Below, piece after piece: positions 9,284 to 47,950 of a DNA stretch of 47,950 bases. Below the pieces are notes generated by a model. It was not told where the DNA came from. It did not search any database and saw only the letters and a program-made list of their open reading frames with translations. Made by a program: the position numbers and the translations under genes. Numbering within the stretch: position 1 is the first letter of the stretch; every line of letters begins with the position of its first letter. The DNA lies in NCBI GenBank assembly GCA_902551895.1, contig CACDEU010000004.1, forward strand, positions 1-47,950, given 5' to 3'. The DNA comes from an uncultured Pelagibacteraceae bacterium. Its GTDB lineage: Bacteria > Pseudomonadota > Alphaproteobacteria > Pelagibacterales > Pelagibacteraceae.

Positions 9284-10444
9284 TTATTTAATCGAATTAA
9301 CCACTTTTTTTGCTGCATCAGATAAATCCGATGCAGATATAATTTCCAAACCTGAATTATCCAATATTTTTTTTCCTTCCTCAAATTTTGTTCCTGCTAA
9401 TCTTACAACTAAAGGAACTTCAATTTTAATTTCTTTAGCAGCATCCACAACCCCTTGTGCAAGAACATCACATCTCATTATACCACCAAAAATATTTATC
9501 AAAATTCCTTTTACATTTTTATCAGATAATATTATTTTAAACGCTGCTGAAACTTTTTCTTTGGATGCTCCTCCCCCAACATCTAAAAAATTTGCTGGCT
9601 CTTCTCCATGTAATTTAATTATATCCATTGTTGCCATTGCTAAACCTGCACCATTAACCATACACCCTATGCTGCCTTCTAATTTTATATAAGATAAACC
9701 ATGTTTACTTGCTTCTATCTCAATCTCTTCTTCCTCATTTAAGTCTCTTAAATTTAAAATTTCTGGATTTCTAAATAATGCATTGTCATCGAAGCTCATT
9801 TTTGCATCCAGACAAATAATTTTATTTTCTTTAGTTAAAATCAATGGGTTTATTTCAACAAGATTAGCATCTACATCAATAAACATTTTGTATATTGATT
9901 TAATCAAATTTATAGCTTGCTTTTTTTGATCTAGACTTAAATTAAATATTTCTACAATTTTTTCGCAATCTTGATCTGATATTTTGTCGTCTAAATTAAT
10001 TTTTGTGGTTATAATTTTTTTTGGGTTATTTTTTGCAACATCCTCAATATTCATTCCACCTTGATCGCTTGAAATAAATGCTATCTTAGAACTTGTCCTA
10101 TCAACTAAACATGAAAGATAAAATTCTTTTTCAATTTCAGAAGATGATTCAACATATAATCTTTTAATTTCTCTTCCTTGAGGTCCTGTCTGGTGAGTTA
10201 TCAATTTTTTTCCTAACATTTCTTTAGCTGCTGAATTTAACTCTTCTATTGTATTTACAATCTTTATCCCTCCTGCCTTTCCACGTCCGCCAGCGTGAAT
10301 CTGTGCTTTTAAAACAAACTTTTCCGTTTTTAATGATTTTGCCTTTTGTAATAATTCTTCAACTGAGTGTGAAAAAACACCTTCAGGTACAATTGCACCA
10401 TATTTTTTTAAAATTTCTTTAGCTTGATGCTCGTGAATATTCAT
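9284..10444 (-). CDS. sucC: Succinyl-CoA synthetase beta subunit
   Basis: The beta subunit supplies the ATP-grasp nucleotide site and the succinate site of succinyl-CoA synthetase. The 386 residues begin [16 protein letters not shown], typical of the family, followed by AGGRGKAGG (51-59) in the ATP-grasp fold, and the C-terminal half holds [12 protein letters not shown] and [10 protein letters not shown]. It precedes sucD by one base and follows mdh by two, giving the common alphaproteobacterial order mdh-sucC-sucD-sucA-sucB-lpdA. Confidence 0.97.
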
Positions 10445-10446
10445 TA

Positions 10447-11412
10447 TTATTTAGAAAGATCTTCATCTATTGCCGAAGCTGATTCCCATAATTTTTTAAC
10501 TGCATCTATTGAATGCATAAATTGACTTTTTTCTTTTTCATCTAAATTTATTTCTTCAATCTTCTCCACACCATTCTTTCCAATTATGACCGGAACTCCT
10601 GCAAAAATATTTTTAACACCATACTCTCCATTAAGCTGTACAGCACAAGGAAGTAATTTTTTTTCATCTTTTAAATATGCTTCAGCCATTTGAGCTCCTG
10701 ATGCTGCTGGAGCATAAAATGCTGAGCCTTTTTCTAAATATTTAACAATTTCAGCACCACCGTCTCTGGTTCTTTGATTGATTTCCTCTAATCTTTCTAA
10801 TGATAATTTTCCCTCTTTAACTAAATCCAACAAAGGTTTACCTGAAACTTTTGTAAATCTTGGTAATGGAACCATTGTATCCCCATGGCCGCCCATAACC
10901 ATTGCTTCTATTTCTTTTACTGGAGTTTTAAGTTCAAGTGACAAAAACAATTTGAATCTTGAGCTGTCTAATATTCCTGCCATACCAACGACTTTATTTG
11001 CTGGAAGTCCTGAGTATTTTTGAAACGCCATCACCATAACATCTAATGGATTAGTAATACATATTACAAATGCATTAGGTGAATTTTTTTTTATACCTTC
11101 TGCTACCTGTTTTATAATTTTTAAATTTATTCCTAATAAATCATCTCTACTCATGCCTGGTTTTCTTGGAACTCCTGCAGTTATAATAATTACATCTGAG
11201 TCTTTAATATCTTCGTAATTATCTGTTCCAGATAATTTAACATTAAAACCATCGACCGATGATGATTGGGCTATATCTAATGCTTTCCCTTTAGCAATAC
11301 CACTTGCAACATCAAACATTACCACTTCATCTACTAGTTCTTTTAAGCCAATTAAGTGTGCGAGTGTTCCACCAATTTGTCCAGCACCAATTAATGATAT
11401 TTTTTTTGACAT
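10447..11412 (-). CDS. mdh: Malate dehydrogenase (NAD-dependent, LDH-like type)
   Basis: The enzyme oxidises malate to oxaloacetate with NAD+. The Rossmann motif [11 protein letters not shown] is at residues 9-19. The substrate arginines lie in [15 protein letters not shown] (R83, R89), where VPRKPG marks malate rather than lactate specificity. D149 and R152 occur in ILDSSR, and the catalytic histidine is H176 in GGHGDTMVP. At 321 residues it belongs to the lactate-dehydrogenase-like MDH group usual in alphaproteobacteria. It follows mmsA by four bases. Confidence 0.96.
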
Positions 11413-27867: not shown

Positions 27868-27875
27868 ATTTTCAT

Positions 27876-27975
27876 CCAGCAGCTATCGCACCAGTGGGCG
27901 AACCCTCGCAGACTGGTGTCGATCTCTTTGTTGCCAAAGACACCGCAAATTGCTTATTTTGCGGAAACTGCGATA
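27876..27975 (-). ncRNA. Candidate structured RNA: ffh leader or small RNA
   Basis: About 98 bases here are roughly 53% GC (52 of 98 counted), far above the window. On the minus strand the RNA can form an outer stem TATCGCA/TGCGATA (27975-27969 with 27890-27884), hairpin CCGCAAA/TTTGCGG (27964-27943), hairpin TCTTTG-GCAA-CAAAGA (27940-27925) whose loop is a GNRA tetraloop, and CACCAGT/ACTGGTG (27918-27889) enclosing GGG-TTCG-CCC. Both special tetraloops appear only on the minus strand. GGTGTC/GACACC and CACCAGT/ACTGGTG share bases, so two folds may compete. There is no T-run after it, so a leader of ffh mRNA is likelier than a free RNA. I see no 4.5S signature (GGAAGCAG) in it. Function unknown. 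Confidence 0.6.
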
Positions 27976-28002
27976 AACTATAATAGAGGTTCAAAAAGTC
28001 AA
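27975..28002 (-). promoter_or_regulatory. Candidate promoter for the ffh series
   Basis: On the minus strand TTGACT (28002-27997) matches the -35 consensus at five of six positions. Sixteen bases later lies TAGTTT (27980-27975); an overlapping TATAGT (27982-27977) is a better -10 but at only 14 bases. Transcription would start near 27968-27971, at or just inside the structured region. Confidence 0.45.
27979..27984 (+). promoter_or_regulatory. Candidate -10 element for dapF-ftsY
   Basis: A perfect TATAAT lies on the plus strand about 40 bases before the dapF ATG. The -35 region (around 27956-27962, ATTTTGC) is poor. It overlaps the minus-strand -10 of ffh, so the two divergent transcripts would start from nearly the same site. 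Confidence 0.45.
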
Positions 28003-28024
28003 TAAATAAGTTAAATATTATTAT

Positions 28025-39948: not shown

Positions 39949-41100
39949 TTATTTTTTAAAAATAATTTTTGAACTATTTAATTCTTTTAAACTTTTACAG
40001 CCCATTAATAACATATTTCTCTCAATTTCTTTTTGCATATTTTGTAATGCACGTTCCACGCCTGCTTGACCTCCAGATGCAAGAGAAAATAAAAACATTT
40101 TTCCAAAACTACAAGCTTTAGCCCCTGCTGCAATTGCTTTTAAAACATGAGTTCCTCTTCTTACTCCACCATCTAATATAATTTCTAATTTATCGCCAAC
40201 TGCATCTGAAATTTCTTTAAGTTGATCAAATGGAGATCGTGATCCATCTAATTGTCTTCCACCATGGTTTGAAAGAAATATTGCAGTACAACCAATATCG
40301 ATTGCTTTTTTTGCATCCTCAACTGACATTACTCCTTTTAATGCAAATGGACCATTCCATTTTTTTATACAATATTCTGCATCTTGCCAATTCATTCCTG
40401 GATCATACTGTTCGTTAACATATTCTATTACTGATTTTGTTATATTAGTTCCTTTATCAGTTTTATGTTTAACATTTGAAAGCTCAAATTTTTTATTTGT
40501 TAAATAATTAAACACCCAACCTGGTCTTACTGCAAATTCAAATAAACTTTTTATCGTAAGTTTTGGGGGAGTAGTAAAACCCGTTCTATGATCTCTCTCT
40601 CTGTTACCGGCTACTATTGTATCAACTGTTAAACACAAACCATCAAAGTTTGCTTTTTTACATCTATCAATCAAATCATCTGTAATAGATTTATCTTTAT
40701 GAATATAAAGTTGAAATAGTTTTGGACCACTTGAAACATTTGCAATCTCTTCAATGGATGATGTAGCCATTGTAGACATGCCATACATTGTTCCTAATTT
40801 TTCAGCTGCTCTTGCAGAAGCTCTATCTCCTTCTGGGTCATACAATCTTTGCATAGCTGTAGGAGATAAAAAAATTGGCATACTTATTTTTCTGCCAAAA
40901 ATTTCTGTTGAAATATCTGGTTTTCCACCTCCAGCTAAAACATTTGGAATTAAATCACATTGACTAAAAGACTCAGTATTTCTTTTTAAGGTTGTTTCAT
41001 CATCTGAGCCTCCATCAATATAATGAAAAATTGGAGATGGTAATTTTTTTTTTGCTAATTTTCTAAAATCATCAAAATTGTGACAATCATTTAGATTCAT
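39949..41100 (-). CDS. lldD: FMN-dependent L-2-hydroxyacid dehydrogenase, paralogue 1
   Basis: This 383-residue flavoprotein oxidises L-lactate or a related L-2-hydroxyacid to the 2-oxoacid. It has the TIM-barrel family features: N-terminal HYIDGGSDDETTL, FLSPTAMQRL, LTVDTIVAGNRERD, the lysine in FALKGVMSVEDAKKA, and the catalytic H279 and substrate R282 in SNHGGRQLDGSR. Its start overlaps the end of a close paralogue by four bases. The two are similar over their whole length and begin almost identically (MNLNDCHNFDDFRKLAKKKL against MNLKDCHNFSDFRKLAKKKL). The exact acid (lactate, glycolate, other) is not determined by sequence. Confidence 0.9.
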   Translation of the reverse strand: MNLNDCHNFDDFRKLAKKKLPSPIFHYIDGGSDDETTLKRNTESFSQCDLIPNVLAGGGKPDISTEIFGRKISMPIFLSPTAMQRLYDPEGDRASARAAEKLGTMYGMSTMATSSIEEIANVSSGPKLFQLYIHKDKSITDDLIDRCKKANFDGLCLTVDTIVAGNRERDHRTGFTTPPKLTIKSLFEFAVRPGWVFNYLTNKKFELSNVKHKTDKGTNITKSVIEYVNEQYDPGMNWQDAEYCIKKWNGPFALKGVMSVEDAKKAIDIGCTAIFLSNHGGRQLDGSRSPFDQLKEISDAVGDKLEIILDGGVRRGTHVLKAIAAGAKACSFGKMFLFSLASGGQAGVERALQNMQKEIERNMLLMGCKSLKELNSSKIIFKK

Positions 41101-42251
41101 GCTTTTCTAAACCTTAAATTGTTTCTATTTAAATCACTTATCTTTTTACAGCCCATAAGTTTCATATCTCTCTCGAGTTCGGCCTTATACTGTCCCAAAG
41201 CTCTTTCAACACCAGCTTGACCAGCTGCTGCTAATGCATAAAGATAGAGTCTTCCACCAGAACACGCTTTAGCGCCAATAGATAATGCTTTAAGCATATG
41301 AGTACCTCTTTGGAATCCTCCTTCACAAATAACATCTATCTTATCTCCAACTGCATCTACAATTTCTGCTAATTGATCAAATGGTGATCTTGATCCATCA
41401 AGTTGTCTTCCTCCATGATTTGAAACCATTATTCCTGAACATCCAATATCAACTGCTTTTTTAGCATCTTCAACACTCATCACTCCTTTAAGTGCAAAAT
41501 GACCTCCCCATTGTGAACATAATTTTTCAGCATCATTCCAATTCATAGATTGATCCAGCATAGTAGAAAAATAATTACCAATAGAAGTGTTCGTGCTAGT
41601 ACCTTCTTTTACATATTCTTGAAGATGTGGCAATTCGAACTTACCCTTTGTTAAATAGTTTATTCCCCACATTGGTTTTGTAGCAAAGCTATACAAACTT
41701 GATAATGTAAGTTTAGGAGGAGAAGTAAACCCAGTCCTAAGATCTCTTTCACGATTTCCTCCTGTAATTGTGTCTACTGTTAAAGCTAAAACATCAAACT
41801 TTGCTGCCTTTGCTCTTTCTAAACAAGAATCATTTAAACCTCTGTCTTTATGAAAATAAAACTGAAACATTTTTGGTGTATCAATTAATGAAGCTATTTC
41901 TTCAACACTTACAGTAGCTAAAGCTGAAACTCCAAACATTGTATTAAATTTCTGAGCTGCTTTTCCTACTGCTCTTTCTCCATCGTAATGAAAAAGTCTT
42001 TGTAAAGCTGTCGGTGCACAATAGAAAGGAAGATCTAATTTTTTTCCAAATATAGTAGTTGATAAATCAATATTTTCTACACCTCTTAATACATTTGGAA
42101 CTAAATCTACATCGTCAAATGAACTTGTATTTCTTCGGTAAGTAATTTCATCATCAGCAGCACCATCGATATAGTGAAAGATTGGTGAAGGTAATTTTTT
42201 TTTAGCTAGTTTTCTAAAGTCACTAAAGTTGTGACAGTCTTTAAGATTCAT
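41097..42251 (-). CDS. lldD: FMN-dependent L-2-hydroxyacid dehydrogenase, paralogue 2
   Basis: The 384-residue product has the same motifs and numbering as its downstream neighbour: HYIDGAADDE, YCAPTALQRL, LTVDTITGGNRERD, FALKGVMSVEDAKKA and catalytic H279 in SNHGGRQLDGSR. Differences cluster in the barrel loop around residues 200-250, where substrate-specificity lids sit. This fits two enzymes for different hydroxyacids, or two subunits of one enzyme. It is ten bases after the PagL-like gene and overlaps paralogue 1 by four bases. Confidence 0.9.
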   Translation of the reverse strand: MNLKDCHNFSDFRKLAKKKLPSPIFHYIDGAADDEITYRRNTSSFDDVDLVPNVLRGVENIDLSTTIFGKKLDLPFYCAPTALQRLFHYDGERAVGKAAQKFNTMFGVSALATVSVEEIASLIDTPKMFQFYFHKDRGLNDSCLERAKAAKFDVLALTVDTITGGNRERDLRTGFTSPPKLTLSSLYSFATKPMWGINYLTKGKFELPHLQEYVKEGTSTNTSIGNYFSTMLDQSMNWNDAEKLCSQWGGHFALKGVMSVEDAKKAVDIGCSGIMVSNHGGRQLDGSRSPFDQLAEIVDAVGDKIDVICEGGFQRGTHMLKALSIGAKACSGGRLYLYALAAAGQAGVERALGQYKAELERDMKLMGCKKISDLNRNNLRFRKA

Positions 42252-42789: not shown

Positions 42790-43158
42790 CTAATTAATAA
42801 ATACTTTTTTATAAATTAATATGCCTCCAAAAATAAATAAAAGCAACGGAAATGCCCACAATATTAAATTTTTTTTGTCAAACTCTGGGTCATAAACAAT
42901 CCATTCACCATATTGATTTTTTAAATAATCATATATTTGATCTTCAGATTCTCCATTTTCAATTTTATTTTTTATTAATAATTTCATACTTAGGGCAAAA
43001 TCTGATTGTGAATCATAAACTGATTGCCCTTGACAGATTAGACATCTAAGATTTTTAGAAATTTTATCAATTATCATGGAATTATCATTAGCTATTAATA
43101 ATTTTTGAAATGATAAAATTAAAAAAAATATTAATAAAATTATTTTTATTATTCTCAT
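42790..43158 (-). CDS. ccmH: Cytochrome c maturation protein CcmH (CcmL type)
   Basis: CcmH reduces apocytochrome c cysteines for haem attachment. The 122 residues have a signal/anchor segment (3-22), the redox motif LRCLICQ with C39 and C42, the conserved QSDFALSMKLLI and YLKNQYGEWIVYDP, and a C-terminal membrane segment (about 100-117). It is the short form, lacking the CcmI-like TPR domain found fused in some bacteria. Its ATG overlaps ccmG by four bases. Confidence 0.94.
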   Translation of the reverse strand: MRIIKIILLIFFLILSFQKLLIANDNSMIIDKISKNLRCLICQGQSVYDSQSDFALSMKLLIKNKIENGESEDQIYDYLKNQYGEWIVYDPEFDKKNLILWAFPLLLFIFGGILIYKKVFIN

Positions 43159-43679
43159 GATTTGATTAAATTTATAATTTCTAAGATATTATCATGGGTT
43201 AAAGGCCCAATATATTTCCTTATAACATTGGATTCATTGTTTATAAGAAAAGTTTCAGGAACTCCATAGGCTCCTAATGAGATAGATATAACGCCATCTG
43301 GATCTGTTAAAATTTTTGAAAAAGGATTGCCTAATTTATTTATGAAATTGATAGCATTGTTTTTTTTATCTTTGTAATTAAGACCTATAATATTTATATT
43401 TGTTTTTTCTTTTAAATCCATAAGCACTGAATGTTCTTGCTTGCAAGGAATACACCATGAAGACCATATATTTATAATGGTAAACTTATTAACCTTGATT
43501 ATATCATTTGAATCAAATTGTTCGTTTGAAAATAATTCTTTGCTAATGAAAGCAGATAAATTTTCATTCTTTATTTTTTCTGTAGTATAAATATTAGAAT
43601 TATCTAGACCTTTGTAGAATATAGAAAAAATAAATAAAAAAAACAAAAACAAAATTGAATAAAAAATATTTTTTTTCAT
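43155..43679 (-). CDS. ccmG: Cytochrome c maturation thioredoxin CcmG/DsbE
   Basis: CcmG is a membrane-anchored periplasmic thioredoxin that keeps apocytochrome cysteines reduced. The 174 residues carry an N-terminal anchor (about 5-22) and the active site WCIPC (C76, C79), with the GVPETFLIN cis-proline loop near 135. It lies three bases after ccmF and overlaps ccmH by four. The N-terminal linker is AT-biased and lysine-rich compared with better known homologues. Confidence 0.94.
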   Translation of the reverse strand: MKKNIFYSILFLFFLFIFSIFYKGLDNSNIYTTEKIKNENLSAFISKELFSNEQFDSNDIIKVNKFTIINIWSSWCIPCKQEHSVLMDLKEKTNINIIGLNYKDKKNNAINFINKLGNPFSKILTDPDGVISISLGAYGVPETFLINNESNVIRKYIGPLTHDNILEIINLIKS

Positions 43680-43682
43680 ATA

Positions 43683-45557
43683 TTACAATCTTTTAAATAT
43701 TCCTAAAATACCTCCAATTGAAATTAAACATGTTGATATCCATATCCAAATCATAAATTGTTTTGTTTGATATCTAACATTAAAAATTTCTTCTCCTTTT
43801 AATAAATTTATAACTAAAAATTTATCAAAAAAGATCGTCGACTTTATATCTGCTTCACTTGTCAATATATTGGGTTGATTATAAATTCTAATTTCAGGAT
43901 ACAAGTAAATTGAATTCTTTTTTTTATCTATTATTTCAAAATTTGCTATAACAGATTTATAATTTTCTTTCTTATGTGTTTCTAAACTCAAAAACTTTAT
44001 TTGTTCTTTTTTATAAATTACTTCTTGCCCTATTTTCATATTTGCTGAAATTTCACTTGAAAATAAACTATTTAATAAAATGCTTAATACAAACAAACTA
44101 AATCCAAAATGTGAGATTGTCTGTGAAATATTGTGCTTATTTACTAAAAATTCTCTTATAGTCGTTAATAACAAATATAAAGCAGCTCCGCCCAAAATAG
44201 ATGTAAATAAAATTTCTGTTGATGTGTTTTTTATTAAATAAAAAGATATTAATATACATATTAAAAATAAACCAATTCTTGAATATTTTATATTTTTATA
44301 ATTATCTTTAATCCAATTAAGCTTTGGCCCTAATGACATAAAAATTAAAAAAAATGTCAAAAAAGGAATAAGTAATTTATTAAAAAATGGTGGACCTATA
44401 GAAATTTTTTCATCTACCATAACTTCTAAAAATATTGGATAGGTAGTTCCTATTAAAACTACAGATAAAAAATACATCATAAACCAATTATTAACTAAAA
44501 TTGAAGTTTCTTTGCTAACTAAAAAGAATTTTTTCTGCGGTGTGGCTTCTTTTTCTTGGTAAATAAAAAATAAAATTAAAGATAAAATAATTAAAAAAAA
44601 TAAAAATAATAAAATAAATACTCCTCTTGCTGGATCATTTGCAAATGTATGAACTGAATTTAATATGCCAGACCTGACTAAAAAAGTCCCACTCATGCTG
44701 AGTGTAAATGTTGCAATAGATAATATTAAAGTCCATGACTTAAGCAGTTGCCTTTTTTCTAGTACTATAATTGTATGAAGAAGTGCAGTTAAACACAGCC
44801 ATGGCATTAAAGAAACATTTTCTACAGGATCCCAAAACCAAAAACCTCCCCAACCAAGTTCATAATAAGCCCAAATTGACCCCAGCAAAATTCCTATGGT
44901 TAAAAAAAACCATGCTGTTTGAATCCATTTTTTTATGTGCTTTGCCCATTTACTATTAATGTTATTTTGAATCAATGATGCTAAAGATGCAGAAAAAATT
45001 ATTGATGATCCAACATAACCTAAATATAAAATTGGAGGATGAATTGCTAGGGCAGGATCTTGTAGAATTGGATTTAAACCAAGACCCTCTTTTGGAGCAG
45101 GAAATAATAAGTTAAATGGATTTGAAGTTGAAAGTAAAAATAAAAAAAACCCACAAATAATAATTTGTTGAAAAAAAACTGATAGCAATCTGTATTTTGT
45201 AGGTTGTTTTTTTGAAAAAATAATAAATAAAAAAATAAATAAAGTTAAAACAAGTAACCAAAGTAACAAACTGCCTTCATGATTACCCCAGGTTCCTGTA
45301 ATTTTATAAAATAATGGTTTAGTTGTATGAGAATTATTATAAACAGTTTCATTAGTAAAATCTGAAACAATAAAAGAATAAATTAGAGAAATAAAACTTA
45401 ATACAACAGTAAAAAACTGCAAAAATAAAATTGAAAAAATATTTTGGTTTATTTTTTTGTTATTTTTTTTAAAACAAAAAATCGAATAAATAAGTAAAAT
45501 AATCGAAAGTATAAATCCCAATATAAGTGAATAATATCCTATGTAACTGGAAATCAC
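43683..45557 (-). CDS. ccmF: Cytochrome c haem lyase subunit CcmF
   Basis: CcmF takes haem from CcmE and attaches it to apocytochrome c. The 624-residue membrane protein has the haem-handling WWD-type motif [12 protein letters not shown] (236-247), [11 protein letters not shown] near 90-100 and HPPILYLGY (173-181), and many membrane segments. The start codon is GTG at 45557, overlapping the ccmE stop (GTGA). It is slightly shorter than the usual 640-660 residues. Confidence 0.96.
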
Positions 45558-45979
45558 TTATTTTTCTCCAGAGCCTCTTTGACTTCAGGTGGCATATAAT
45601 TTTCATCATGTTTTGCTAATATTTTGTCGGCATTAAAAAAACTGCGGTCTTTTAAATAGCCCTCAGCAACTACACCTTTTTCTTCGGAAAATAAATTAGG
45701 AACGGCACCAGAATAAATAACATTTATATCGTTTTTAAAATCAGTTATAACAAAACTAATTTCATTCTGATTTAATTTAATTGTATCTTTTTTTACCATT
45801 CCTCCAACTCTAACTTTTTCTTTGCTATCGATTTCAGATAAATTTTTTATTTCTGTAGGAGAAATAAAATATACTACGTTCTCTTCTAAGGATTTAAGAA
45901 TTAAAAAAACAGTTAGTACTAGAATTAAAAAAATAAATGATAAAAACAATAACCTTAATTTAACTTTTTTACCAAACAT
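45554..45979 (-). CDS. ccmE: Haem chaperone CcmE
   Basis: CcmE covalently holds haem and passes it to CcmF. The 141 residues have an N-terminal anchor (about 9-29), a beta-barrel OB-fold with [12 protein letters not shown] and VAEGYL, and the haem-binding H124 with Y128 in [10 protein letters not shown]. Length and order (after ccmD by 12 bases, overlapping ccmF by 4) are as expected. Confidence 0.96.
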
Positions 45980-45991
45980 GACTTAATAAAG

Positions 45992-46225
45992 TTAAATTTT
46001 TGAAACTAAATTACTTGCTAAAATTCCTTTATATGTTTTTTGTGTTCTAACAGTATTTTTTTTATCAGAGGTTAAAGTTAAATATTTAGCATCAAATTTG
46101 TTTTTTTCTTTAACGAGCTGAAATTTAATTACTGTGTATAGAACTCCGAAACTTATCAATGTAAACGAAAATGCAGACCAAACGTAAATCCCATAACCAT
46201 TCATCGAAATAACTTCATTAATCAT
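45992..46225 (-). CDS. ccmD: Haem exporter protein CcmD
   Basis: CcmD is a small single-span protein that helps release haem-loaded CcmE from the CcmABC complex. The 77 residues have one membrane segment (about 13-33) with the family-like NGYGIYVWSAFSFTL just before it, then a lysine-rich cytoplasmic tail. Its ATG overlaps the ccmC stop (ATGA), which favours this start over M8. It is longer than usual CcmD (50-60). The call rests mainly on position between ccmC and ccmE. Confidence 0.85.
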   Translation of the reverse strand: MINEVISMNGYGIYVWSAFSFTLISFGVLYTVIKFQLVKEKNKFDAKYLTLTSDKKNTVRTQKTYKGILASNLVSKI

Positions 46226-46929
46226 AATCTATCTAACCCTTTATTTTTAATTTTTATCAGTTCTGTATTATATTTCATCAAAAAAATCATGATAGAAAAT
46301 AGTGCAAATGCCGCAGTCATTAAGGCCAAAGGAATAATCATAGATGAGTGTATCGAAGTTCCTGAAAATATATTTACTGAAGCAGGCTGATGCAATGTTG
46401 ACCACCAATCAACAGAGTATTTTATGATTGGAACATTAATTACTCCCAATATTGCAATGAATGCTGTTATTTTATGAATTTTTTCTTTATCTTCATAAAT
46501 TCTCCATGCTAAAATATAAATTATATAAAACAAAGCTAATATTAACATCGATGTAATTCTTGCATCCCAAGCCCACCAGGTTCCCCAAGTTGGTTTGCCC
46601 CAAATAGATCCAGTTACAAGAGCAATGATATTAAATACTAAACCTGCTGGCGCCAAACTTTTTGCAATTAAAATAAAAGATTTAATTTTAAAAATTATTA
46701 TTAGAAAAGATAAAATTGCAATTGTTGAAAAAGTACCTAAAGCTATCCAGGCAGATGGCACATGTACATACATTATTCTTACTGAATGGCCTTGTATATA
46801 ATCTTCAGGAGAAAGAATTAACGCTTCAATTAACCCAATGGAAATTATAATTATAAAAAGAAATAAAACGTATTTTGGAGCTCTAGATGTTATTAAAAAA
46901 ATCTTATTTGGCTCAAAATTTTTTAACAT
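46222..46929 (-). CDS. ccmC: Haem exporter/handling protein CcmC
   Basis: CcmC presents haem to CcmE in the periplasm. It has the WWD-type motif WGTWWAWDARIT (115-126), the haem-ligand histidines H56 (YVHVPSAW) and H180 (STLHQPAS), and six membrane segments in 235 residues. It heads the ccmCDEFGH order. ccmA and ccmB, which usually precede it, are not in this window; the 181-base upstream spacer instead holds a long inverted repeat and then hspQ. Confidence 0.96.
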   Translation of the reverse strand: MLKNFEPNKIFLITSRAPKYVLFLFIIIISIGLIEALILSPEDYIQGHSVRIMYVHVPSAWIALGTFSTIAILSFLIIIFKIKSFILIAKSLAPAGLVFNIIALVTGSIWGKPTWGTWWAWDARITSMLILALFYIIYILAWRIYEDKEKIHKITAFIAILGVINVPIIKYSVDWWSTLHQPASVNIFSGTSIHSSMIIPLALMTAAFALFSIMIFLMKYNTELIKIKNKGLDRL

Positions 46930-46978
46930 TTAAGACTTATATCTTTAAAAATTTATTTTGTTGATTAATTTTTTAGAT

Positions 46979-47044
46979 TATTCCGATCAAGAATACTATA
47001 GAGGGAGATAAATAAAGGATAAAAAAGTATCCTTGATCAGAATA
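46979..47044 (-). promoter_or_regulatory. Long inverted repeat between hspQ and ccmC
   Basis: The arms at 46979-46997 and 47026-47044 form a 19-pair stem. On the plus strand it has two mismatches (C/A and A/C); on the minus strand both become G-U wobbles, so the uninterrupted fold exists only in RNA made toward ccmC. The loop is 28 bases. A shorter hairpin, AAGGATA/TATCCTT with a six-base loop (47015-47034), shares bases with one arm and would compete. No T-run follows, so it is not a standard terminator. It is probably a leader structure of the ccm series; the rest of 46930-47110 shows no gene. Confidence 0.55.
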
Positions 47045-47110
47045 TTACTCTTTATAAACCTAAGTTATGTCCAAGTTTTGAGTTAATTGTGTTTGAATAT
47101 TGTCTATTTA

Positions 47111-47431
47111 TTAATTTGAAGGTTTAAAATAGGTTGAGCCCTTTTTGCCAGAAAATATCTCATTTATTAGAGGATGCTTTATAGGCTCTTCAGACTCATC
47201 GACTAATAAGTTCTGCTCAGATACGTAAGCTTCATAAGTAACATCGTCATTTTCAGCTAGAAGGTGATAAAAAGGCTGGTCTTTTCTTGGTCTAACATTT
47301 TTTGGTATTGATTGATACCACTCTTCTGAATTATTAAATTCAAAATCAACATCATAAATAACACCCCTAAAGTCGAAGTGCTTATGCTTTACTATATCAC
47401 CAATAGAAAATTTCGCTTTTTGAATACTCAC
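47111..47431 (-). CDS. hspQ: Heat shock protein HspQ (YccV-like)
   Basis: The 106-residue protein is HspQ, a small beta-rich protein also described as hemimethylated-DNA-binding YccV and as a specificity enhancer of Lon protease in Yersinia. Visible family features are AKFSIGDIVKHKHFDFRGVI, YDVDFEF, RPRKDQPFYHLLAEN and YVSEQNL. The start codon is GTG at 47431; no ATG lies in a suitable place. It is divergent from the yciB-like gene across 69 bases, and the ccm series follows it on the same strand after 181 bases. Confidence 0.92.
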   Translation of the reverse strand: MSIQKAKFSIGDIVKHKHFDFRGVIYDVDFEFNNSEEWYQSIPKNVRPRKDQPFYHLLAENDDVTYEAYVSEQNLLVDESEEPIKHPLINEIFSGKKGSTYFKPSN

Positions 47432-47500
47432 GTGATTAAATATGGGGATTTAAATTAAAAAATCAATAAAAAAATTTTAAAGTTTTTTTATTCTGTTAAT

Positions 47501-47950
47501 ATGTTTTCTGTGAACAAATCATTTATCAAATTTATCACTGATTTTGGACCTTTATTGGTTTTTTTTAGTTTTTATTACAAAAGTGAAAAAAACTTAACTG
47601 TAGCAATTCCTCCATTTATAGTTGCAACTATCATCGCTTTAATTGTTGTTTGGATTTTAGAAAAAAAAATTCCAATGGTACCTTTACTTGGTGGAATATT
47701 TATTACTTTATTTGGAGGACTTACAATATACTTTGATAATCCTATTTTTATTTACATAAAGCCTACAATTATAAATATATTATTTGGTCTAGGACTTTTA
47801 TTTGGAAAATTTTTTACAAATGAACCAGTTTTAAAAAAAATGCTTGGTAAATCTATACAATTAACCGATAAAGGTTGGAAAATTTTAAACTTGCGATGGG
47901 TTTATTTCTTTTTTGGTTTAGCACTATTAAATGAAATTATTTGGAGAACA
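47501..47950 (+). CDS. Inner-membrane septation protein YciB-like, C-terminus cut
   Basis: The reading frame opens at ATG 47501 (MFSVNKSFIKFITDFGPLLV) and stays open for 150 codons to the window edge. The FITDFGPLLVFF opening, LEKKIPMVPLLGGIF, DNPIFIYIKPTIIN and LRWVYFFFGLALLNEIIWR are the signature of the YciB (IspZ/septation protein A) family. These are about 180-residue inner-membrane proteins with five membrane segments that affect cell envelope synthesis. About 30 residues should be missing. The gene is divergent from hspQ. No good ribosome binding site precedes the ATG. Confidence 0.9.
   Translation, partial: MFSVNKSFIKFITDFGPLLVFFSFYYKSEKNLTVAIPPFIVATIIALIVVWILEKKIPMVPLLGGIFITLFGGLTIYFDNPIFIYIKPTIINILFGLGLLFGKFFTNEPVLKKMLGKSIQLTDKGWKILNLRWVYFFFGLALLNEIIWRT

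Follow-up and report, generated by a model that had tools for sequence, protein, structure and literature searches.

Several alphaproteobacterial small RNAs carry C-rich loops. The name CcsR goes with SmelA075, SmelA099 and RS0680a. These are stress-linked sRNAs of Rhizobiales and Rhodobacter that carry CCUCCUCCC loops, as described in PMC3927594, while AbcR1 and AbcR2 bind mRNAs through a single-stranded CUCCCA of their first hairpin (PMC5461406). For Pelagibacter itself, the screen of Meyer et al. 2009 lists intergenic spacers of more than 26% GC (PMC2704228). The comparison presented here adds a hairpin located next to the heat-shock gene hspQ, which looks less like a switch for haem or cytochrome c than like a regulatory RNA not described before.

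The window, i.e. the whole stretch of 47,950 nucleotides that was analysed, is one contig of a Pelagibacteraceae genome of 1.03 Mb that is 81% complete. On its minus strand, hspQ is followed by a 181-nt spacer with a stem-loop and then by ccmC (Table 1). The spacer (46930-47110) is the longest of the window, as the preliminary description had it, the runner-up measuring 157 nt (27868-28024) when the ORF list is read by eye for the gaps that separate ORFs of 90 aa or more, plus ccmD. That description had also reported a 19-pair inverted repeat whose imperfect positions are G-U on the ccm strand, and folding of both strands confirms this: on the minus strand, all 19 positions of a 19-bp stem pair around a 28-nt loop, two of them as G-U, and the fold reaches -22.5 kcal/mol (z -6.8); on the plus strand, where these two positions are mismatched, it reaches -14.1 kcal/mol (z -3.1). 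For either strand, 0 of 200 shuffles folded as well. With a 9-base seed, a repeat finder misses this repeat, in which complementarity runs unbroken for 5, 7 and 5 bases. The competing inner hairpin that had been proposed can be drawn in the window, but at -6.0 versus -22.5 kcal/mol and with unclear comparative support: in the wider set, 82 of 178 sequences have a 5' half that by itself reaches a fold of at least -3 kcal/mol in stability, which gives the inner hairpin no clear backing. On the other side of hspQ, an A/T-only inverted repeat with 14-nt arms and zero spacer (47465-47492) lies before a divergent gene that starts at 47501. Just before the hspQ start, here (47432-47460) as in the upstream regions of other loci, a CCATAT-like stretch often follows T/A-rich sequence; we take it to resemble the -10 element of a heat-shock sigma factor, in which case the hspQ mRNA would be nearly leaderless.

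Table 1. Positions of the hspQ-adjacent RNA, its putative promoter elements and the flanking genes in the window.
Feature	Position	Strand	Basis or remark
hspQ (YccV-like, PF08755)	47111..47431	minus	precedes the RNA in every locus examined
CA block, predicted activator site	47066..47102	minus	CA at 47102, 47091, 47080, 47069: four 11-bp steps
-10-like hexamer TATAAA	47051..47056	minus	predicted from TA at fixed spacing
5' arm of stem	47026..47044	minus	folding and covariation
Conserved single-stranded loop motif UUAUCUCCCUC	47001..47011	minus	CTCCC in 181/181 unique spacers
3' arm of stem	46979..46997	minus	folding and covariation
ccmC (PF01578)	46222..46929	minus	next gene in the window; start 49 nt past the stem

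Both the conservation of the spacer and covariation within it had been named beforehand as checks on the proposed RNA; the spacer is conserved, and covariation supports the stem in the genus as well as in the family. Within the genus, 70 of 71 loci supplied spacers (65 unique, 151-201 nt); the one left out, L002, is a chance match that lies, as judged by eye, inside a coding region. Alignment A1 comprises 47 of the 49 non-redundant spacers (<93% identity) and was made without use of the structure; L005 and L006, which have an insertion before the stem, were set aside. Standard pairs occupy 99.3% of its 704 stem cells, 9 of 15 pairs show double-sided changes, and none of 500 shuffles reaches any of five measures, results that are not probabilities because the aligned sequences are related. 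RNAalifold recovers the same 15 pairs from the genus spacers unaided. In the genus stems, 106 G·U cells stand against a single A·C cell, which indicates that pairing is kept only on the hspQ/ccm strand and bears out the original strand call. The family alignment A3 (41 sequences, 21 of them from other genera) extends the double-sided changes to all 15 pairs (126 cells), with a covariation score of 0.673 compared with at most 0.179 in slid controls; A3 was made with a stricter inclusion cut-off, and it was fitted to the structure of the covariance model, which favours pairing. Between genera, the stem sequences differ wholly while the pairing is kept. The loop is the most conserved part: CUCCC occurs in all 181 unique spacers, as exact CUCCCU in 176 and with one or two extra C in the remaining five, and beyond the stem the sequence shows no conservation (mean top-base frequency 0.50). 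By comparison, then, the repeat is identified as the stem of a conserved RNA on the hspQ/ccm strand. The model match is about 20 nt longer than usual in L005, L006, L211, L212, L225 and L281; in the first two, the extra length comes from bases inserted after the -10-like box and before the stem.

Covariance models detect the RNA in all 14 sampled genera of Pelagibacteraceae. Model R1 finds it in 177 of the 247 genomes of the family sample, covering 11 of the 14 genera, and in 169 of 247 genomes of an order sample made up mostly of the same genus; model R2 adds g7, g9 and g12, with the RNA after hspQ in 7/7 loci. Among the best 80 named loci of at least 559 hspQ relatives, the RNA follows hspQ directly in 80/80, and the titles of these relatives are nearly all Pelagibacteraceae, the rest being Pelagibacterales or Candidatus Pelagibacter. 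Both hspQ and ccmC are present in 44/44 loci with R1 matches, and hspQ precedes the RNA in 30 of the 31 loci of another set, the chance match L002 being the exception. When 21 genomes without an R1 match were checked, seven had hspQ, all of them with the RNA, and 14 had neither hspQ nor ccmC, so that the region is missing from those assemblies. Some matches were discounted: in G308, G419 and G503, the second model match is the one hairpin read again on its other strand, and a search with spacer DNA, which hit 145 of 201 genomes, is unfit as a measure of prevalence owing to many weak, short A/T-rich matches lying elsewhere. In the class sample, matches occur in 4 of 385 genomes, three from the window's own genus and the fourth, G694, from another family; its hspQ, RNA and ccmC resemble those of the window's genus, and we read it as contamination. 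The 40 genomes of the sister family f2 gave nothing credible, with one match at E ≤0.1 (E 0.076) at a locus without hspQ or ccmC, and the exact pattern in eight stretches of viral contigs has no credible model support (best E 2.9). Absence of the RNA outside Pelagibacteraceae is thus provisional, as the broad searches use strict filters and the class search missed g9 genomes that carry the RNA. One g6 genome has a second, truncated hspQ-like frame (50% identity) at a contig end (L173, G206:C20:15-188).

Upstream of the stem lies a block that resembles a promoter. Direct repeats at 11-bp steps that replace the -35 box and end about 10 bp before the -10 box are typical of promoters activated by OmpR/PhoB-type regulators. 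Between the hspQ stop codon and the stem, 178 of the 181 unique spacers contain three CA in 11-bp steps and 141 contain four, where shuffled spacers average 2.9 and 0.1, respectively. TA follows the last CA by exactly 13 bp in 165/181 and TAnnnT stands there in 101/181, compared with 41 at the next-best offset. In the anchored count behind the TA distance, the anchor score included the CA at 0, +11 and +22, so the counts of those three lean on it; the CA at -11 and the TA are independent of it, and the numbers for CA steps given above come from a repeat of the test without an anchor. The last CAnA is separated from the TA by 9 bp, a spacing with the geometry of an OmpR/PhoB-type activated promoter, and by eye no -35 box was recognised in the block. 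The stem starts a median of 9 positions past the last base of the hexamer (162 sequences; 7 in the window). This arrangement suggests an activator-dependent promoter with a predicted transcription start at the base of the stem, near 47044, rather than downstream of the repeat, the case that the preliminary description had named as a refutation. A genome search for a second CA block gave 16 matches, the locus itself included, versus 13 in the control and none of them clear, so that the activator would be one without a visible regulon.

To which of its neighbours does the RNA belong? In the window, the ccm genes sit between the RNA and a group of a PagL-like, two FMN-dependent dehydrogenase-like and one aminotransferase-like gene. 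In genera g3 (3/3 loci), g6 (3/3) and g8 (1/1), the pagL-dehydrogenase-aminotransferase set comes immediately after hspQ and the RNA. The ccmC gene was traced in four genomes (G202, G206, G208, G216) to a contig other than that of the RNA, and at these relocated loci R2 finds no credible RNA (E 1.6 or worse). The RNA does not stay upstream of ccmC or other haem genes: in three genera ccm has its place elsewhere and the RNA remains beside hspQ, which makes a switch dedicated to ccmC or haem unlikely. Of the RNA that was proposed to fold on the way to ccmC and to act in haem handling or cytochrome c maturation, the folded structure survives and a role specific to ccmC finds no support: pagL is the next gene in 7/7 loci of the three genera, and haem or cytochrome c control by the RNA is not supported by the sequences compared. 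On gene order, ccm is best described as a movable operon in a syntenic stretch. The operon (42790-46929 in the window) is absent from its place in L116, L117, L123, L124, L125, L130 and L133. Next to it, the two adjacent FMN-dependent dehydrogenase-like genes that follow the PagL-like gene (39949-42251) share 72% and 62% identity with their one counterpart in L124.

A broader version of the same idea is that the RNA serves as the 5' leader of whichever operon lies downstream, mostly ccm and pagL in three genera, with a regulated promoter and a hairpin that sets read-through, stability or translation; we regard this as a tentative possibility that is doubtful on present evidence. In the loci examined, RNA and following gene share a strand, which leaves room for a leader, and no terminator is conserved: of the 178 of 181 sequences that could be anchored, 59 have a T4 run within 12 nt past the stem and 21 a T6 run, so a T run directly after the stem, as in an intrinsic terminator, is not the rule. 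A discrete sRNA end is consequently not evident and, together with the unconserved sequence after the stem, this makes read-through into the next gene possible. Genome G226, which we take to be strain HTCC1062, carries the RNA at 289545-289672, in a 182-nt spacer of 23.1% GC. In HTCC1062, ccmC (SAR11_0287) mRNA is listed at 10.35-fold (column LS) and 2.18-fold (column CS), and at 4.74-fold in sulphur-limited versus control stationary phase, with no peptide detected, in the data of PMC5069961. This rise keeps a link to ccm in play, and read-through from a putative promoter in the spacer into ccmC could explain the induction under sulphur limitation. However, the RNA holds its position behind hspQ where a different gene follows, and it was not found at relocated ccmC; the sequence from stem to start codon is not conserved, and around the ccmC start the loop lacks a partner, with GGAG or GGGA in 0 of 135 unique 30-nt upstream regions.

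An element of the hspQ mRNA 3' UTR, be it a hairpin for stabilisation or processing or an sRNA derived from the 3' UTR and lacking a promoter of its own, would fit the position of the RNA, which comes immediately after hspQ in each locus examined and is absent along with hspQ from the 14 hspQ-less assemblies checked. Yet a mere stabiliser would need neither an invariant loop nor a phased CA block with TA at fixed distance, and the loop lacks a partner in the hspQ start region as well (GGAG or GGGA in 0 of 164 unique 30-nt upstream regions), which makes this explanation quite improbable in our view. Least credible by far are two readings of the repeat, as a protein-binding DNA palindrome or as a plain intrinsic terminator that separates hspQ from the following operon: a long inverted repeat between genes and a T run soon after the stem in a few sequences (e.g. 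L015, L124) speak for them, but such a palindrome would not be expected to show the G·U excess, T6 runs are rare, the stem changes wholesale with pairing kept, and conservation is highest in the loop.

We therefore favour, with confidence and doubt in about equal parts, a single-copy regulatory RNA, probably an sRNA that acts in trans through an anti-Shine-Dalgarno-like loop and may also read on into the gene that follows. Comparison across genomes establishes on which strand the RNA lies, its stem, its conserved CUCCC loop and its place directly after hspQ whatever gene follows; what the RNA does is built on likeness. Its predicted structure presents a conserved C-rich loop, single-stranded on a varying stem, as in anti-Shine-Dalgarno sRNAs, and conserved C-rich loops on variable stems are the design of known sRNAs described in PMC3927594. 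Transcription would start at the base of the stem, from a promoter in which no -35 box can be recognised and under a predicted activator that binds the CA repeats at 11-bp steps in the manner of OmpR/PhoB-type response regulators. The long stem would then present CUCCCU as an anti-Shine-Dalgarno-like seed, which may pair in trans with the G-rich ribosome-binding regions of mRNAs and lower their translation or stability, and some transcripts probably read through into ccmC or pagL. A search for targets found none and gave no clear enrichment: AGGGAG-N3-9-ATG occurs 319 times in 15 genomes versus 289 in the control (summed). Exact GAGGGAG has 27 sites in the window's own genome, none of them a clear gene start, a count for which the reversed-word control is uninformative because the word reads the same backwards. 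Five of these sites with a possible start codon within 60 nt lie, by eye, inside longer reading frames. The tmRNA and RNase P stretches of G226 contain no AGGGAG.

SAR11 bacteria are very abundant in the ocean. Their cells are described as having very few regulators, with three complete two-component systems in a Pelagibacter genome (PMC6365647), and an RNA found in 14/14 sampled genera, its loop conserved and the sequence before it laid out like a specific promoter, would belong to the core of SAR11 regulation. In its boldest form, which we think unlikely but worth stating, this would be a family-wide core sRNA: one of the few response regulators that such streamlined cells possess switches on a single-copy anti-Shine-Dalgarno RNA, many mRNAs are repressed when growth stops, and read-through raises ccmC in sulphur limitation. 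If so, post-transcriptional control would do work that elsewhere falls to transcription factors. The RNA in any case offers a testable alternative reading of the reported ccmC induction in HTCC1062.

How could such an RNA have been overlooked? The G226 tmRNA (10241-10551) covers the HTCC1062 tmRNA spacer (10302-10518) of Table 1 in PMC2704228, a table in which the HTCC1062 hspQ-ccmC spacer does not appear. The GC content of that spacer lies below the 26% cut-off, which is how the 2009 screen could miss the RNA, and other low-GC RNAs may have escaped it likewise. In the available text of the literature, including PMC2864571, PMC2864753 and PMC6429828, we came across no account of an RNA at hspQ-ccmC; PMC6429828 covers SAR11 strain HIMB5 and has its motif list in the supplement, so an entry there is possible. 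Against Rfam 15, the window stretch gave six matches up to E 10, the best at E 0.4 and none near the gathering score, and seven loci of several genera (35,034 bases) gave none at E ≤1.

Finally, we would like to set the hspQ RNA beside the described systems. It shares with the candidates of Meyer et al. 2009 (rhtB, pntA, babIM, SAR11_0636; PMC2704228) that these are conserved intergenic RNA candidates of SAR11 and marine metagenomes, and in that account none is placed at hspQ-ccmC. Its loop shows CUCCCU in 176/181 spacers and CUCCC in 181/181 where AbcR1/AbcR2 have a single-stranded CUCCCA in the first hairpin, and the hspQ RNA differs from them in having no conserved second hairpin and other neighbouring genes; the second AbcR motif GUUCCC is absent (GTTCCC in 0/181 spacers, searched from base 41 on). 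With SmelA075, SmelA099 and RS0680a, as far as they are described in PMC3927594, it has in common a conserved C-rich anti-Shine-Dalgarno loop on variable stems in alphaproteobacteria, and it is by analogy with such sRNAs that we infer action in trans. Instead of CCUCCUCCC loops in at least two hairpins, it has one conserved hairpin, and CCTCCTCC occurs in 0/181. Judged by these motifs, the hspQ RNA belongs to neither the AbcR nor the CCUCCUCCC sRNA family: the SmelA075-type sRNAs combine two to four hairpins, several copies per genome and CCUCCUCCC, whereas the hspQ RNA combines one hairpin, one copy and CUCCCU.
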